Assembly: GCA_944358525.1 (NCBI GenBank)
Contig: CALVRI010000009.1
Span: 1 to 38,306 of the forward strand
Direction: 5' to 3'
Length of the DNA stretch: 38,306 nucleotides
Source of the DNA: an uncultured Bacilli bacterium
Lineage (GTDB): Bacteria > Bacillota_I > Bacilli_A > RF39 > UBA660
Shown here in pieces: positions 9,995 through 37,804 of this stretch. Every line of letters starts with the position of its first letter. Position 1 is the first letter of the stretch. Both the position numbers and the translations under genes were made by a program. Under the pieces are notes generated by a model. That model saw nothing but the letters and a program-made list of their open reading frames with translations. It was not told the DNA's origin and did no database searches.

Positions 9995-10023
9995 TTGTCA
10001 TAAAGTTAAATTTGTGATAAAAT
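9995..10023 (+). promoter_or_regulatory. Promoter of small RNA 1 (antitoxin-like)
   Basis: TTGTCA (9995-10000), 17 bases, TAAAAT (10018-10023). The following bases TGTATATAGATGAGAGAA are nearly the same as those after the promoter of the second RNA at 22246-22282 on the minus strand. Confidence 0.75.
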
Positions 10024-10030
10024 GTATATA

Positions 10031-10101
10031 GATGAGAGAAATCTCATAAAATAAAAAAGGAACATTCAATACTTCTATGTTGGATGTTGCCATGTTTTTT
10101 T
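10031..10101 (+). ncRNA. Candidate antisense small RNA 1 (type I antitoxin-like)
   Basis: The predicted RNA is about 70 nt and starts near 10031. It has a 5' hairpin ATGAGA (10032-10037)/TCTCAT (10042-10047), an A-rich linker, then a terminator hairpin and TTTTTTT. It is convergent with the hydrophobic-peptide mRNA on the minus strand, so it is fully complementary to that mRNA's 3' end. GAACATTC in the RNA (10060-10067) is also complementary to GAATGTTC at the predicted 5' end of the mRNA, giving two separated contacts as in the RNAI/RNAII pair of par. The 5' segment is conserved in the second locus (22230-22246, minus strand). No experimental support; not a family I can name. Confidence 0.65.
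10059..10091. terminator. Bidirectional terminator shared by the peptide mRNA 1 and small RNA 1
   Basis: GG-AACATTCAA (10059-10069) pairs with TTGGATGTT-CC (10080-10091) with a bulged base and one mismatch. T residues follow on the plus strand (10095-10101) and on the minus strand (A run at 10053-10058), so it can end both convergent transcripts. Confidence 0.75.
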
Positions 10102-10106
10102 GACTA

Positions 10107-10140
10107 TCACCTAATTCATAGTAGCTAATGAGTTAGGTGA
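10107..10140. other. Hairpin in the 3' UTR of peptide mRNA 1
   Basis: TCACCTAATTC (10107-10117) pairs with GAGTTAGGTGA (10130-10140) with one wobble. It sits between the peptide stop codon and the shared terminator, the same place as the GACACTCA/TGAGTGTC hairpin in the second locus. Confidence 0.6.
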
Positions 10141-10147
10141 CTTTCTT

Positions 10148-10231
10148 TTATATTAAGGTTATTAATAATAACGATAATAGAAAGAAGATTATAATGATTA
10201 AAGCAAAGATTAAAAAATCCTTTTTACCCAT
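10148..10231 (-). CDS. 27-aa hydrophobic peptide, candidate type I toxin 1
   Basis: ATG at 10231, TAA at 10150-10148. The peptide begins MGKKDFLIFALIIII, continues with Phe, Leu, Ser and Ile, and ends ITLI. It is one transmembrane helix after a short Lys-rich N-terminus. The ribosome site is very strong (AGGAGGGAGG, eight bases before ATG), so this is a translated gene rather than noise. Its own promoter is at 10296-10324 on the minus strand, and a convergent RNA gene overlaps its 3' UTR. Single-helix peptides in this arrangement are typical of type I toxin-antitoxin systems (Fst, TxpA, BsrG classes), but the sequence does not match Fst. A second peptide of the same style is at 22050-22142. 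Confidence 0.72.
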   Translation of the reverse strand: MGKKDFLIFALIIIIFFLLSLLLITLI

Positions 10232-10295
10232 TATATCGCCTCCCTCCTAAATAGAGTTCAGCAATCACTTTGGCTTTGAACATTCCTTATATATA

Positions 10296-10324
10296 ATTAT
10301 AACAAATAATGACACTAACTACAA
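10296..10324 (-). promoter_or_regulatory. Promoter of hydrophobic peptide 1
   Basis: On the minus strand: TTGTAG (10324-10319), 17 bases, TATAAT (10301-10296). The predicted mRNA starts near 10289 with AAGGAATGTTC. The second locus has the same layout, TTGTAT-17-TATAAT. Confidence 0.8.
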
Positions 10325-10390: not shown

Positions 10391-10595
10391 ATTGATGTGG
10401 ACAAATAACCTAGTAATTATTTAACTAGTAATTAGAAAGTTAGTGGTAGATGAAAACTAACCAAGGTTAAATAATGAATTACACTATTTATAGTCAAACC
10501 GGTTAATCACCGTTATCAGATAAAGAAGCATAGATACTATGAAATAAGGTGGTACCGCGGGAAAAACTCGTCCTTATAATTCATAGTATCTTTTT
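10391..10595 (+). promoter_or_regulatory. T-box riboswitch, tyrosine-specific
   Basis: The antiterminator core AAGGTGGTACCGCGG is at 10546-10560. Stem I has ATTATTTAAC (10416-10425) pairing perfectly with GTTAAATAAT (10466-10475); the loop below carries AGTA (10412-10415) opposite GAATTACAC, which places the specifier TAC (Tyr) at 10480-10482. AAATA (10403-10407) with TATTT (10485-10489) closes the base. The terminator GATACTATGAA (10533-10543)/TTCATAGTATC (10580-10590) is followed by TTTTT. It controls deoC and then tyrS, so the specifier agrees with the second gene. Confidence 0.95.
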
Positions 10596-12624: not shown

Positions 12625-13512
12625 ATGACAAATCAAGTTAAAGCAAAAAGCAAAATGATGCCTACAATGTTTGACCCTGTATTTAAATCACTTTTTCAAA
12701 ATAAAAACTTCAGAAAAACATTATCTTATTTCTTAAGTAAATTAACTGAATATTCGGAAGGTTATATTTATAAAAATTTAGTTTTTCTAAATACCGAAAT
12801 GTCCATAAAACATTACGATGAAAAGAAAAAAATAGCTGACTTAATTATTAAAATTGATGATGATATTATCAATATTGAAGCTAACAGAAATAATAATAAA
12901 AGTACTAAACTTAAAAATAATTCTTATCATCATAAACTAGCTCATGAAAAATTTCAGGCTGGTGATGATTTTGATGATGGCTGTGTTTTACAAATTAATA
13001 TCAATAGTAAAAAAAGATTAAAAAATGAATTATTGCCAGATGATTATAAAATGAGAAATAAAGATGGCAAAAGTACTGATGAAGAAAATTTCAAAAGAAT
13101 ACATATAAATATAGAATTTGCGAAAGAAAAGTATTATACTAAAGGTAAAGAGAAAATGACTAAATTTGAAAAGATAGCTGCAATGTTAGACATTACTAGC
13201 CAAAAAGATTTAAAAGATATTTCGAAAGGAGATGATGATTTAATGGCTATGGAAAAAATAATTTCAGATTTAAACGATGACAAACACATGATAGGTTTAT
13301 ATGACAAAGCCGAAATGGAAGCTTGGATGCATAAAATTGACCGTGAAGAAGCTGAAGCTAAAGGGCAAAAACGTGGTGAAAAACGTGGTGCAAAAAATAG
13401 TGCATTAAATATAGCTCAAAATATGTTAAAGGCAAACATGAACGTAGAAGAAATTGCAAAACTAACTGGCTTGCACAAAAATGAAATTACAAAACTTGCT
13501 AATAATCTATAA
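12625..13512 (+). CDS. Rpn-family PD-(D/E)XK nuclease / transposase-like protein 1
   Basis: This 295-aa protein has the N-terminal FDPVFKSLFQNKNFRKTLSYFLS segment typical of Rpn/PDDEXK_2 proteins. The core ADLIIKIDDDIINIEANRN supplies the Asp and the Glu-x-Asn of the PD-(D/E)XK fold, a variant of the usual IEMQ. The C-terminus has a basic KGQKRGEKRGAK run and a helix-turn-helix-like segment (VEEIAKLTGLHKNEITKL) common to this family. Ribosome site GAGGAGG precedes ATG 12625. It is convergent with the XRE gene at 13538-13999 through a shared terminator; the same pair recurs at 27559-28929. No terminal inverted repeats are seen, so it is not an insertion sequence as such. Confidence 0.8.
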   Translation: MTNQVKAKSKMMPTMFDPVFKSLFQNKNFRKTLSYFLSKLTEYSEGYIYKNLVFLNTEMSIKHYDEKKKIADLIIKIDDDIINIEANRNNNKSTKLKNNSYHHKLAHEKFQAGDDFDDGCVLQININSKKRLKNELLPDDYKMRNKDGKSTDEENFKRIHINIEFAKEKYYTKGKEKMTKFEKIAAMLDITSQKDLKDISKGDDDLMAMEKIISDLNDDKHMIGLYDKAEMEAWMHKIDREEAEAKGQKRGEKRGAKNSALNIAQNMLKANMNVEEIAKLTGLHKNEITKLANNL

Positions 13513-22049: not shown

Positions 22050-22142
22050 ATGAAAACAAAAACTTTTATTTTAAAGTTTTTAAACCTCATTTGTATCATT
22101 TTGCTACTTTCTACCTTATTGGTTCTAGCAATACAAAAATAG
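22050..22142 (+). CDS. 30-aa hydrophobic peptide, candidate type I toxin 2
   Basis: ATG 22050, TAG 22140-22142. The peptide begins MKTKTFILKFLNLICIILLL and ends with LAIQK: a basic N-terminus, one membrane helix, a short polar end. Ribosome site GAGGAGG lies 9 bases upstream. The mRNA 5' end AGGAACATTTA (21993-22003) is complementary to its own 3' end TAAATGTTCCT (22207-22217), and GTGAGTGTCG (22006-22015) to CGACATTCAC (22189-22198) with one wobble, so the message can close on itself as in type I toxin mRNAs. A convergent RNA gene on the minus strand overlaps its 3' end. It is a paralogue in design of the locus at 10148-10231. Confidence 0.72.
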   Translation: MKTKTFILKFLNLICIILLLSTLLVLAIQK

Positions 22143-22246
22143 ACACTCATCATCAGTGATTGAGTGTCAAATCGATTTATTTTAGAGGCGACATTCACTT
22201 GCGAACTAAATGTTCCTCTTTTTTATTATATGAGACTTCTCTCATC
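22135..22246 (-). ncRNA. Candidate antisense small RNA 2 (type I antitoxin-like)
   Basis: The predicted start is near 22246 on the minus strand. The 5' sequence GATGAGAGAAGTCTCAT forms the same hairpin as small RNA 1 (10031-10047, one base different) and is followed by the same A-rich linker and AGGAACATT. It then runs through the complement of the peptide mRNA terminator (22185-22218) and probably ends at GACACTCA/TGAGTGTC (22143-22168) followed by TATTTTT on the minus strand. It would be about 110 nt and would overlap the peptide's stop codon. Confidence 0.65.
22185..22224 (+). terminator. Terminator of peptide mRNA 2
   Basis: GAGG-C-GACATT (22185-22195) pairs with AAATGTTCCTC (22208-22218), leaving one bulged C, followed by TTTTTT. 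The equivalent hairpin of locus 1 has the same bulged C. Confidence 0.8.
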
Positions 22247-22253
22247 CATATAC

Positions 22254-27558: not shown

Positions 27559-28464
27559 ATGATAAAATTAAATAATAATTTCTTTAAAAAATTAGATAAA
27601 GACTTAACTCTTATTCCTCTGACATATGACCGAGCTTTCAAAAAAATATTTGAATATAATATAGATATATTGAGATATTTGCTAAAAGAAATTATGCCAA
27701 TACCAATAGATGATAATTGCAAGATTACTGTTTTAGATAGTGAACTTCCAGTAGAAAACAAAAAAGAATCAAATAAGATAATAGATATATATGTTGTCTT
27801 AGATGGCAAAAAATACGTCGATATCGAAATGAATAGAAGCAAATTTGAATATGTTTTAGAGCGCAATATAAAGTATCAAAATAAATTATTAAGCCTGCTT
27901 TTGGAAAGAGGAGAAAAACTTAATACTTTAAAAGAAAAACAGTTATATCAAATCAATTTAAATGCTCACCCAGATGAAGAAGTATTAGATGATATAATTG
28001 TATATTATGGAATAAAAACTCATAAAATATATTCTAAAAATGAGTGCATGGTTGTTAAAAGTCTTGAAAGGTATAGAGATTTATATTATAATGAAAATGA
28101 AAGAGGCAAAGATGTCATATGGCTTACGGCATTAACTTCTAGAACATTTAGTGAACTATATAAATTAGTAAGTCAAATCCTTCCAGAAAAAGAAGTTAAA
28201 ATATTAATGGAGGCGGCGATAAGTATGAGTAAAGATAAATTTGTCCTGCACGAATGGCAAAAAGATAAGTTAGATAAACTTGTTATAGACACCGCAAAAG
28301 ATAAAGGAATCGAAGAAGGAAAAAGCATTGGTAGGCAAGAGGGAATTAAGGAAAATACTACCCAAATAACTAAAAACTTACTTAAAGAAAATGTTGATAT
28401 TGAAACCATTTCAAAAGTCACTGGTCTAACTAAAGAAGAAATTAAAAACCTAGAAGAAAAATAG
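27559..28464 (+). CDS. Rpn-family PD-(D/E)XK nuclease / transposase-like protein 2
   Basis: This 301-aa protein has the N-terminal TYDRAFKKIFEYNIDILRYLL segment, then NKIIDIYVVLDGKKYVDIEMN, which gives the Asp and Glu-x-Asn of the PD-(D/E)XK core (usual IEMQ). A family-type tail has a KGIEEGKSIGRQEG repeat and an HTH-like end (IETISKVTGLTKEEIKNL). It is only distantly similar to the copy at 12625-13512, so the pair is not a recent duplication even though their upstream elements are almost identical. Ribosome site AGGGAG precedes ATG 27559. It converges on an XRE gene. Confidence 0.8.
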   Translation: MIKLNNNFFKKLDKDLTLIPLTYDRAFKKIFEYNIDILRYLLKEIMPIPIDDNCKITVLDSELPVENKKESNKIIDIYVVLDGKKYVDIEMNRSKFEYVLERNIKYQNKLLSLLLERGEKLNTLKEKQLYQINLNAHPDEEVLDDIIVYYGIKTHKIYSKNECMVVKSLERYRDLYYNENERGKDVIWLTALTSRTFSELYKLVSQILPEKEVKILMEAAISMSKDKFVLHEWQKDKLDKLVIDTAKDKGIEEGKSIGRQEGIKENTTQITKNLLKENVDIETISKVTGLTKEEIKNLEEK

Positions 28465-34706: not shown

Positions 34707-36353
34707 ATGCATAGAAGTAAGAGAAAAAGAAATCTAATAATATTTAGTTTAGTAGGAGTGTTACTTTGTATGGCAATAGGTTATGCGGCATTCCAAACCC
34801 AGCTTAAAGTAACAGGATCTTCTACAGTAACATCAAATTGGGATATAGAAATAACTAATGTAACAGCAGGTACTCCAACTGGAAGTGCCGAAAATGCTGT
34901 AGCCCCTTCATATGATAAACTATGGGCAAGTATGGAAGCTAATTTATATGATAAAGGTGATGCCATGGAATATGATGTCACTATCGAAAATAAAGGAACT
35001 TTGGATGCTAAACTAAATGATATTATAACTAATTTAGATAATAGTAATAATGAAGCCGTTTTAATAACTTTTTCAGGATATACCAAAGGAGAAGTATTAA
35101 AAGCCCAAACATCTAAAGTAGTCCATGTAAAAATAGAATATAATCCAGAATATGAAGGTGGAGAAACATCAAGTGAAGTAGAAATAAACTTTGATTATGG
35201 ACAAAATAATAATGAAACTAATAACCCAGATAATACATATTTAGTTAAATATGATTGTACTACTAATGGTGGAGAAGATTGCACAAATAATAATGAATAT
35301 TTTAGCACTGGAAATAATGTAGATTTAAATAAAACAGGGTATAAAAAAGATTTTACTTTTATAGGTTGGAATACTAATAAAGATGCTCAAGAAAAACTAG
35401 ATAGTTTAATAATGGAAAATAATGACATAACATTATATGCCATATTTAAAGATACAACCCCACCAATATGTACCTTAAAAGTAAAAGAAGCAACCATTAA
35501 TACAGTAACTATAGAAGCAACTTGTGAAGATGTAAGTGGTATATCAAAATATGAATACAGTATTAACAATAATGGATATATAGATAATAATAACAATAAA
35601 ACATATACTTTTGCTTCATTTGATTTAAGTACTATTAAACTAAAAGCAACAGATGGAGCTGGTAACAGCGCAGAATTTACATTAACAGAAGAGGAATTAC
35701 AAAATGGATATCAAATAATATATGATGTATTAAATAAAGAATATGAAGATGCACTTGATAAAAAAGAAAAATATGAAAAAGAATTTTTAAACAAGACTTA
35801 TCCAATTGGAAGTATATATATTTCAACTTCTAGCACAAATCCATCGAGTCTATTTGGTGGAACATGGGCAGCATATGCCCAAGGTAGAACATTAATAGGT
35901 GTTGGTAGTAACGGAGAAACAAACTATGCTTCTGCTGGTCTAACTGGTGGTACTGAAAATGTCACTCTAGCTACAACTAATATACCTTCACATAGTCATA
36001 CAGTAACTCCTGTTGGAACAGTTAAAAGTACATTTTCAGGAAGATCAGGGACAACATCTAGCTCTGGTACTCACACTCATAGTGGTGAATATGTGGATAC
36101 AAAAACTTCGCCAGCAGCAGACAATAATTTGGGATTAGCTCAGGTAGCCGGTTTTAAAGATAGAGTAATAGTATCTGGACGTTCAATGACTGCACCTTCA
36201 TCTGGAGCACATACCCATACCTACACAGCTTCTGGAACCGTTTCTAGTCGATTTACTGGTAGTAGTACCACATCTTCATCTGCTGGAAGCACCACATCAT
36301 TTAATGTTATGAATCCATATATTGTTACTTATATTTGGAAAAGGACAGGTTAG
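34707..36353 (+). CDS. Anchored multi-domain surface protein with C-terminal phage-tail-collar-like domain
   Basis: This 548-aa protein starts at ATG 34707 after AGGTGGAG. Domains in order: a basic N-terminus and membrane segment ending IGYAAFQTQL (same type as 29025-30095); a beta-rich domain of about 120 residues like TasA/camelysin fibre proteins; an InlB/Flg_new-type repeat (TFIGWNTNKDAQ, ITLYAIFKD); an Ig-like domain ending TDGAGNS; and a short helical linker. The last domain is collar-like: YPIGSIYISTSSTNPSSLFG, GTWAAYAQGRTLIGVGSNG, HxH motifs (SHSHT, THTH, HTHT) and the ending NPYIVTYIWKRTG, as at phage tail-fibre and baseplate tips. Two shorter genes with the same end domain follow. 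Confidence 0.82.
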   Translation: MHRSKRKRNLIIFSLVGVLLCMAIGYAAFQTQLKVTGSSTVTSNWDIEITNVTAGTPTGSAENAVAPSYDKLWASMEANLYDKGDAMEYDVTIENKGTLDAKLNDIITNLDNSNNEAVLITFSGYTKGEVLKAQTSKVVHVKIEYNPEYEGGETSSEVEINFDYGQNNNETNNPDNTYLVKYDCTTNGGEDCTNNNEYFSTGNNVDLNKTGYKKDFTFIGWNTNKDAQEKLDSLIMENNDITLYAIFKDTTPPICTLKVKEATINTVTIEATCEDVSGISKYEYSINNNGYIDNNNNKTYTFASFDLSTIKLKATDGAGNSAEFTLTEEELQNGYQIIYDVLNKEYEDALDKKEKYEKEFLNKTYPIGSIYISTSSTNPSSLFGGTWAAYAQGRTLIGVGSNGETNYASAGLTGGTENVTLATTNIPSHSHTVTPVGTVKSTFSGRSGTTSSSGTHTHSGEYVDTKTSPAADNNLGLAQVAGFKDRVIVSGRSMTAPSSGAHTHTYTASGTVSSRFTGSSTTSSSAGSTTSFNVMNPYIVTYIWKRTG

Positions 36354-36361
36354 GTGAAAAC

Positions 36362-37069
36362 ATGAAAATAAAAATTTTAATCTCAGTAATACTCTTTATT
36401 ATTCCTCTTGAATTAATAAAAGCTAATGAAATAGAAGCATCACTAAATAATTTAAGTAGAGAAATAAGTAATATAAAGCAAGAAATCAATAATATTAGTC
36501 CTTTGGACAGCAAATATCCAGTTGGAAGTATATACACAACAACATCTAATACTAATCCATCACAAACTATCGGAGGAACTTGGGAAAGTTTTGGCCAAGG
36601 AAGAACATTGATAGGTGTTGGAAGCAACGGAACAACTAACTATTCAACAGTTTTATCTACTAGTGGTAAATCTAAAATAGCTTTATCAACAGCAAACATT
36701 CCTTCACATAATCATACTATTACAGCCAAAGGGACAATAAGTAGTACATTTACAGGAAGAAGTGTTTCCACAAGTAGTAATGGATCACATTCTCATACTT
36801 TTCAATTAAAGACTAGTGGACAAGAAGCTAGAGGCTATGGAATTACTACTTCTGATGGTGGATTTCGAGGTAGAGTAATTATTCAAGACAAAAGTAAATA
36901 TTCGTATTCTAATTCGACCGGCAGTCATACCCACACAATAACTCCATCTGGCACCATTACTAGTACCTTTAAAGGAACAAATGCGACTACATCATCAGTT
37001 GGAAGTTCTTCATCAATTAATGTACAAAATCCATATATAACTGTGTATTTTTGGAAAAGAACTAAGTAA
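36362..37069 (+). CDS. Secreted coiled-coil protein with phage-tail-collar-like domain (copy 2)
   Basis: The start is ATG 36362, behind TAGGTGA; the upstream in-frame ATG at 36335 lies inside the previous gene. It has 235 aa: a signal peptide (KIKILISVILFIIPLELIKA, cleavage near ANE), a short heptad coiled coil (LNNLSREISNIKQEINN), then the collar-like domain YPVGSIYTTTSNTNPSQTIG, GTWESFGQGRTLIGVGSNG. Two histidine repeats follow (SHNHT and SHTHT, each with P-x-GT or K-GT and F-x-G), ending NPYITVYFWKRTK. The coiled coil suggests trimers, as in tail fibres. It is part of a tandem array with 34707 and 37091. Confidence 0.82.
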   Translation: MKIKILISVILFIIPLELIKANEIEASLNNLSREISNIKQEINNISPLDSKYPVGSIYTTTSNTNPSQTIGGTWESFGQGRTLIGVGSNGTTNYSTVLSTSGKSKIALSTANIPSHNHTITAKGTISSTFTGRSVSTSSNGSHSHTFQLKTSGQEARGYGITTSDGGFRGRVIIQDKSKYSYSNSTGSHTHTITPSGTITSTFKGTNATTSSVGSSSSINVQNPYITVYFWKRTK

Positions 37070-37090
37070 ACCCACAAGGAGGAAACAAAT

Positions 37091-37804
37091 ATGAAAAAAG
37101 TGATATTCTTTATTATATTATTAATTATAAGTATGCCTAAAGTTAATGCAGAAACAATCAGCGATAAAATAGCAAATTTACAAAATAATATCAATAACTT
37201 ATCTTCAGAAATAGCTAATTTAAATAATATTGATAAACTATATCCTATAGGTAGTATTTATATAACTATAACAAGTACAAACCCTTCTACAACAATTGGT
37301 GGAACATGGATTGCATATGGTCAAGGTAGAAAAATAGTTGGAGTTGGTAGTAATGGAACGACAAATTATAGTTATAATACTTCTGGAGGAAGTAGTACTA
37401 AAAAATTGGCAGTTACTAATTTACCATCGCACACCCACACAATAACTCCAAGTGGAACAGTTACTAGTACATTCAGTGGAAAATCAGTAAATACTAATTC
37501 AAAAGGATCTCACACTCATACATTTCCGTTTGGTTATGCTAGTGATGAAGCAAAAGGATATGGACTTAGAGAGGGTGTTGACCAAACATCCACAACCAAC
37601 ACATGGGATGTAATCATTGTAAAAGATGGAAATAGTGTAAAATTAAATTCCTCTGGCTCTCACACTCATACGATGACATCATCAGGTACTGTTTCTAGTA
37701 CTTTTACAGGAAGTAGTGCAACCACATCATCTGTTGGAAGTACTACATCATTTAGTATTCAAAATCCTTATATTACAGTATATATGTGGAAAAGGACGGC
37801 CTAA
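37091..37804 (+). CDS. Secreted coiled-coil protein with phage-tail-collar-like domain (copy 3)
   Basis: This 237-aa protein starts at ATG 37091 after AAGGAGG. The signal peptide ends PKVNA before ET. A heptad coiled coil follows (IANLQNNINNLSSEIANLNN), then YPIGSIYITITSTNPSTTIG, GTWIAYGQGRKIVGVGSNG, histidine repeats SHTHT twice, and the ending NPYITVYMWKRTA. It is clearly paralogous to 36362-37069 along its whole length. The most variable part lies between the two histidine repeats (about residues 145-185), where a tail-fibre tip would carry its binding loop. No phage structural, lysis or packaging genes are nearby. Confidence 0.82.
   Translation: MKKVIFFIILLIISMPKVNAETISDKIANLQNNINNLSSEIANLNNIDKLYPIGSIYITITSTNPSTTIGGTWIAYGQGRKIVGVGSNGTTNYSYNTSGGSSTKKLAVTNLPSHTHTITPSGTVTSTFSGKSVNTNSKGSHTHTFPFGYASDEAKGYGLREGVDQTSTTNTWDVIIVKDGNSVKLNSSGSHTHTMTSSGTVSSTFTGSSATTSSVGSTTSFSIQNPYITVYMWKRTA

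Follow-up and report, generated by a model that had tools for sequence, protein, structure and literature searches.

Introduction

The very small peptides of type I toxin-antitoxin modules make such modules difficult to detect in sequence searches. In the window analysed here, a stretch of 38,306 nucleotides from an uncultured Bacilli bacterium, a short hydrophobic peptide gene faces a small RNA gene on the opposite strand, and this arrangement raises the question of whether the two form such a module and, if so, which known system it resembles. A sequence-only reading of this DNA had answered with the layout of par (fst/RNAII), in which convergent transcripts would share one hairpin as a terminator and would meet again at the mRNA 5' end. 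Here, we consider that answer against the copies of the locus found in other genomes.

Organization and promoters of the locus

The unit is 330 bases long and occurs in many copies in uncultured gut Bacilli. Its minus strand carries a hydrophobic open reading frame of 27 amino acids, MGKKDFLIFALIIIIFFLLSLLLITLI, which belongs to peptide class A and would encode the putative toxin (10148..10231, ATG at 10231), preceded by the Shine-Dalgarno sequence AGGAGGGAGG (10239..10248, minus strand) on the 3' side of a local hairpin. Both the frame and the ribosome site are present as originally described. The mRNA promoter, TTGTAG-17-TATAAT (10296..10324, minus strand; TATAAT at 10301-10296), was recognized by reading and as a conserved block, and places the predicted start near 10289. 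From there to the U-run, the predicted peptide mRNA is approximately 240 nt long (10052..10289, minus strand). On the plus strand, the promoter TTGTCA-17-TAAAAT (9995..10023) precedes an antisense RNA gene of approximately 120 nt (10030..10150), the last 100 nt or so of which overlap the predicted mRNA.

In the promoter scan, the plus-strand promoter scored 10 of 12 matches and the minus-strand promoter fell below the threshold, being absent from the list because its -35 element TTGTAG is too weak; promoter-like sites in the locus region were no commoner than in shuffled sequences. Both promoter blocks recur across 42-43 aligned copies, and support for them thus comes from conservation among copies and not from the scan. 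Of the two promoters originally proposed, the plus-strand one was found by the scan and is kept in relatives, and the minus-strand one stands by reading and conservation although the scan missed it.

Distribution of the family

The locus recurs beyond chance. A DNA search of its own genome returned 13 element matches, a tandem array included, and 55 of 99 relatives match the element. Homologous loci might have lacked a conserved peptide frame and ribosome site, a possibility raised with the original proposal, and on checking both proved to be conserved in relatives. A covariance model (R1) built from 42 antisense RNAs gave 12 matches in the same 1.3-Mb genome and found matches in 41 of the 44 genomes of the genus; across a class-wide sample it reached 11 genomes of the family f1, to which this genome belongs, and one of family f5. 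Peptide profiles (A/B and C) matched 23 of the 38 sampled f1 genomes, as the union counted by hand, and gave one strong match among 296 genomes outside f1 (G247, family f5, E 1.4e-13). In a DNA pattern search of one genome per species across 84,980 species, the matches were confined to uncultured metagenome-assembled genomes (MAGs). With few exceptions these bear the label Bacilli or Firmicutes, and they include Candidatus Coprosoma intestinipullorum and Candidatus Caccenecus avistercoris. Neither viral contigs (DNA pattern) nor phage records (DNA search) gave a match, and plasmids gave nothing beyond one spurious match of 45 bases. The copies are dispersed and tandem, polymorphic, and amount to approximately 150 distinct copies in four peptide classes.

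A second locus lies in the window at 22050-22247, upstream of a DNA gyrase/topoisomerase B-like gene. It consists of a class C peptide of 30 amino acids, MKTKTFILKFLNLICIILLLSTLLVLAIQK, followed by a stop codon (22050..22139, plus strand), and of a facing antisense RNA (22143..22247, minus strand; R1 match, E 1.3e-5). Its terminator and leader are unlike those of the first locus, yet match each other.

Several other features of the window were observed. A T-box leader (10397-10578; Rfam RF00230, 87.7 bits, slightly below the gathering score) precedes a deoC-like gene and a tyrosyl-tRNA synthetase-like gene. By reading only, two proteins (12625-13512 and 27559-28464) resemble the Rpn/PD-(D/E)XK transposase-related family, and three adjacent proteins (34707-37804) carry similar tail-collar-like segments of the form PIGSIYxxxxxxNPSxxxGGTW.

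Peptide classes and selection on the reading frame

The peptides fall into four related classes of 24-30 amino acids, each with ribosome sites and all with a common plan, a brief charged start followed by a hydrophobic run. Class A (MxKKDFLI...) has 24-30 residues, mostly 27; class B (MTKRE...) has 25; and class C (MKTKTFIIKVLK...) has 30. The fourth, a W-bearing variant, ends in ...LLWKSLN, and tryptophan is present solely in this divergent MTKKDFLILVLL..WKSLN subclass. The ratio pN/pS was 0.36 in class A (49 unique open reading frames) and 0.42 in class B, and the second codon position was the least variable. These values demonstrate, as far as comparison of the copies can, that the predicted frame is under selection. 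Several copies encode identical peptides.

Searches of Pfam, NCBIfam and PHROGs with the peptides returned no usable match and named no toxin family. None of the family peptides matched the Pfam model Fst_toxin (PF13955), which an Fst sequence used as a positive control does match. HokA was reached by one of 27 peptides, with an E value of 0.27 at best. The main classes of 27, 25 and 30 residues also lack both tryptophan and the PXXXG motif; the original observation that the peptide is unlike Fst is upheld.

Sequestration of the Shine-Dalgarno sequence in a 5' stem-loop is predicted by folding and agrees with a cognate test, in which the two halves of the hairpin paired at -7.45 within a copy and at -6.17 (sd 0.20) with the halves of other copies.

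Structure of the antisense RNA

The antisense RNA folds well beyond chance (z = -4.7) into three conserved hairpins. The first, at the 5' end, has a loop of the GAAA type; hairpin 2 follows, and the terminator is the third. The 5' hairpin (AUGAGA-GAAA-UCUCAU, 10032..10047, plus strand) shows compensatory changes from AUGAGA/UCUCAU to AUGAAG/CUUCAU. Hairpin 2, with arms GGAACAUUCAAU and GUUGGAUGUUGCC on either side of its loop (10059..10091, plus strand), has its main helix paired in 99% of cells, and the third hairpin (10107..10140, plus strand) is common to both RNAs and serves as the predicted terminator of the antisense RNA. Over the whole structure, 96.5% of cells are paired as compared with 28-45% in slid controls; nine pairs have two-sided changes, and cells with such changes number 67 versus 20.3 in shuffles. 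Many of the changes produce G-U on the plus strand, where the opposite strand would have A-C; selection has therefore acted on the strand of the antisense RNA. Taken together, the aligned copies establish the predicted antisense RNA as a selected structured RNA. No Rfam family matched the element.

How this RNA would reach the mRNA beyond their overlap was also considered. No selected complementarity was found between the antisense RNA and the Shine-Dalgarno region (p 0.17), so repression would have to be indirect; pairing of hairpin 2 with the Shine-Dalgarno half was rejected, as it has no cognate advantage. The contact originally proposed between the antisense RNA and the mRNA 5' end fared unevenly: the complementarity of GAACATTC and GAATGTTC is present in the window copy, whereas in many others both RNAs contain GAACATTC. 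As to the par-style reading, in which hairpin 2 pairs with the leader in trans, it showed a small cognate advantage (z -3.6) and was set aside because pairing of the mRNA ends in cis explains the similarity better.

Predicted end of the peptide mRNA

In the original reading, a single hairpin with a T run on each side ended both transcripts. The terminator scan did not bear this out, as it found a T-rich stretch after the hairpin at 10107-10140 on the plus strand only; on the minus strand, TAGTCAAAAAAAC comes next. A T run is first reached on the mRNA strand past a second hairpin (10091..10059, then T6), which is the antisense of hairpin 2 of the antisense RNA. From sequence, the predicted mRNA terminator is thus this hairpin followed by TTTTTT (10053..10091, minus strand), the T run hardly varying among 42 copies; the scan missed it because it permits loops of 3-8 only. 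Since the U run of the inner hairpin is on the plus side only and a T run follows the second hairpin, the mRNA would be approximately 240 nt long and its overlap with the antisense RNA approximately 100 nt. The peptide mRNA therefore apparently ends at the second hairpin, with the 3' ends of the two RNAs overlapping by that length.

Predicted pairing between the mRNA ends

At the 3' end of the same predicted mRNA, GGCAACAUCCAAC...AUUGAAUGUUCCUU can base-pair with the leader sequence AAGGAACAUUCAAUAGUUGGGUGGUUGCC, and the two are predicted to form a conserved pairing of approximately 27 bp, hereafter the end-lock. In helix 1, the 5' arm AAGGAATGTTCAA (10276..10288, minus strand) pairs with the 3' arm TTGAATGTTCCTT (10057..10069, minus strand), and 95% of cells across 42 copies are paired. 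The predicted mRNA fold has a z of -5.1, and its ends are predicted to be paired in 42 of 42 copies, with a mean of 23.7 pairs versus 4.4 in shuffles. The duplex energy was -33.7 for cognate arms versus -27.9 (sd 0.56) for swapped partners. Among 144 elements, it was -35.5 versus -24.8 with non-cognate partners (z -24.5), and z was still -16.7 when swaps were confined to the same peptide class, a test that limits the effect of the relatedness that permutation leaves in these statistics. Paired cells reached 91% in the end-lock and 33-48% in slid versions. Its columns held 57 cells with two-sided changes versus 15.2 in shuffles, a conservative count because the alignment leaves the majority of the class B rows out of register. 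The end-lock is retained in all classes despite differing arm sequences, and at the second locus of the window it amounts to -37.9 kcal/mol. These comparisons demonstrate that the 5' leader of the predicted mRNA has been kept complementary to the 3' end of the same molecule.

At the first locus, helix 1 (13 bp) is kept and the second half of the lock is mostly lost; GCCAAAGUG stands where other copies have GUUGGGUG, which weakens the lock to -18.6 kcal/mol. The predicted accessibility of the Shine-Dalgarno sequence is nearly equal in the locked (0.21) and 3'-truncated (0.30) mRNA. Because truncation hardly alters this exposure, the lock may affect the stability of the mRNA or its leader and not the Shine-Dalgarno sequence itself.

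The leader also has a second possible partner, GUCACCUAACU, the 5' arm of the inner hairpin (10107-10140) on the mRNA strand. It fits this arm in class A and class B rows, the W-bearing and class C rows being excluded, and the pairing includes a G-C pair that is impossible for the arm of the antisense RNA; column support is weaker than for the end-lock. The reading in which the inner arm is the sole partner of the leader, considered alongside folds of truncated mRNAs, was rejected because the terminator scan found no U run on the mRNA side. As the two pairings are mutually exclusive, the leader may take part in a folding switch.

Loss of peptide and antisense genes

Among 174 antisense RNA genes with enough flanking sequence, approximately 27 lack an intact peptide, a count that is partly a hand judgement (a script flagged 34 and reading left approximately 27). 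Conversely, two of approximately 150 peptides (L183 and L210) have no antisense RNA gene. The ratio of the two losses is approximate because the two lists come from different searches, and the genomes are MAGs, in which assembly effects could account for some of the losses. Far more frequent loss of the peptide than of the antisense RNA is as expected if a harmful peptide is held in check by the RNA.

At L210 (448-525), the class B peptide keeps its leader and inner hairpin, and the antisense RNA gene is absent; the genome (G036) has other class B copies with antisense RNAs, which might protect in trans. In two genomes (L103:541-642 and L107:2645-2745), antisense RNA genes lie opposite a frame of 37 residues, MPPIFYFKLYLHNIIKHKLLSIILLILNCAFLFYWAV, which has no clear ribosome site and may represent replacement of the peptide or its decay. 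Behind leuS, the element is present in four of 30 genomes (two single copies and two tandem pairs), and genome G012 has the same flanks without the element, meeting at ATAAA. This empty site could reflect either loss there or insertion in the others.

Discussion

We consider the locus to be, quite probably, a type I toxin-antitoxin-like module on the chromosome, belonging to a family absent from the libraries searched. Its anatomy, a small hydrophobic peptide gene together with an RNA complementary to the predicted mRNA, is that of type I systems. The minus strand would yield the mRNA of approximately 240 nt for a single-helix, membrane-type peptide, and the plus strand the structured antisense RNA of approximately 120 nt, covering the last 100 nt or so of the mRNA. 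The full-length mRNA may be born inert, with its ends paired and its Shine-Dalgarno sequence in a local hairpin. Loops of the antisense RNA would then bind the common 3' half of the mRNA, and RNase III would cut the duplex. If the antisense RNA ran short, 3' trimming would probably open the leftover mRNA, so that the peptide would be made and would damage the membrane. In this reading the peptide is the putative toxin and the RNA its putative antitoxin. The type I layout originally proposed is strongly supported by conservation of the frame, the ribosome site, the compensatory changes in the antisense RNA and the skewed loss of the peptide; the par-like mechanism attached to it is not.

The anatomy is closer to that of the 3'-overlapping systems of B. 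subtilis, combined with an end-lock like those of hok and aapA. In txpA/RatA, bsrG/SR4 and bsrE/SR5, the antisense RNA is complementary to the 3' half of the toxin mRNA over 100-140 nt, and in txpA and bsrG the duplex is cleaved by RNase III (PMC6562991). The family shares with these systems a 3'-half antisense RNA (an overlap of approximately 100 nt, as predicted from promoters and terminators), a small membrane-type peptide and a Shine-Dalgarno sequence in a short hairpin (PMC6562991). In contrast, its peptides of 24-30 residues match no library model (no Pfam or NCBIfam match to a TxpA or BsrG toxin, as judged by the models), and it has an end-lock of approximately 27 bp where the review gives other strategies for B. 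subtilis (PMC6562991).

End pairing, which folding and covariation predict for this family, is familiar from Gram-negative systems. In aapA/IsoA of Helicobacter, a 5'-3' long-distance interaction and local Shine-Dalgarno hairpins keep the toxin mRNA inert, and an end-paired mRNA, presumably inert in this family too, Shine-Dalgarno hairpins, a small toxin or putative toxin and several chromosomal copies are points of likeness (PMC6733600). However, the aapA 3' arm pairs with the Shine-Dalgarno sequence itself and here the partner is the leader upstream of the hairpin; the antisense RNA of the family covers the mRNA 3' half, the phylum is different and no sequence relation was found. The full-length hok mRNA is likewise folded inert and is released by 3' processing (PMC4147584), and 3' trimming opens both hok and aapA mRNAs (PMC4147584, PMC6733600). 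Sok, unlike the antisense RNA of this family with its 3'-half target, acts on the 5' leader (mok), and the HokA match noted above gives no homology.

Against this background, a true par/Fst locus, with a bidirectional terminator, direct repeats and an Fst-like toxin, is the least probable alternative and we regard it as very improbable indeed. The par locus of pAD1 does have convergent promoters, a hydrophobic peptide of approximately 30 residues and a stem-loop that sequesters the Shine-Dalgarno sequence (PMC7472228), all of which the family shares. However, Fst carries a signature of conserved tryptophan, PXXXG and a charged C-terminus (PMC7472228), of which the tryptophan and PXXXG are absent from the main classes, and none of the peptides reaches a model that the Fst control does reach. 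The inner hairpin offers the mRNA no U run, and direct repeats meeting the translation start are absent: the leader and the 5' part of the antisense RNA read alike in most copies, making them inverted, not direct, repeats as DNA, and the leader complementarity is conserved in cis. Our verdict from these comparisons is that the family is type I toxin-antitoxin-like and not a member of par/Fst. Inverted repeats, together with dispersed and tandem copies and the presence/absence pattern behind leuS with ATAAA at each edge, could also suggest a mobile, MITE-like element whose arms are kept alike by gene conversion and whose peptide is incidental. We hold this to be highly unlikely, as pN/pS is well under 1, ribosome sites and promoters are conserved, the arms are not identical but show two-sided changes and substitutions that preserve wobble pairing (C-G to U-G, A-U to G-U), and no link to a transposase was seen.

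Two further explanations keep the same RNAs and alter their purpose. The peptide might be a small, non-toxic membrane peptide, such as a regulator of stress or of a transporter, tuned by the antisense RNA through the same logic; with 12 copies in one genome, and identical peptides in several copies, a potent toxin would burden the cell heavily. It is nonetheless unlikely, given the skewed loss of the peptide and a double lock on the mRNA (Shine-Dalgarno hairpin and end pairing) that resembles the precautions of lethal type I toxins (PMC6733600, PMC6562991). Alternatively, the main role of the leader may be antitermination or protection of the 5' end, so that its pairing with the CACCUAAC arm or with the 3' end would control termination or mRNA half-life and not translation. 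The fit of the leader to the inner arm, the G-C pair open only to the mRNA's own arm and the small effect of the lock on Shine-Dalgarno accessibility agree with this idea, which overlaps our preferred explanation; the pairing with the best support, however, involves the 3' terminal arm, which can be reached only when the mRNA has been almost fully made, and we give the idea a small chance, slightly above that of a non-toxic peptide.

More tentatively, and with slightly less than even confidence, we propose that the toxin-antitoxin-like modules described here form a separate superfamily in uncultured gut Bacilli. Its members would unite a convergent antisense RNA at the 3' end with an mRNA whose ends are locked, and the leader of this mRNA, which can pair either with the 3' end of the molecule or with the inner hairpin arm, may act as a timed switch. 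To our knowledge, end-locking would then be seen for the first time in a type I system of Gram-positive-type bacteria. With approximately 150 distinct copies in four peptide classes, the family provides enough covariation to reveal the folding of its mRNA. mRNA end-locking is known from the Gram-negative systems hok and aapA, and the present family suggests that it exists in Bacilli too. A reduced gut genome of 1.3 Mb may carry as many as twelve of these modules, and orphan antisense genes are the traces of peptides lost in the past.
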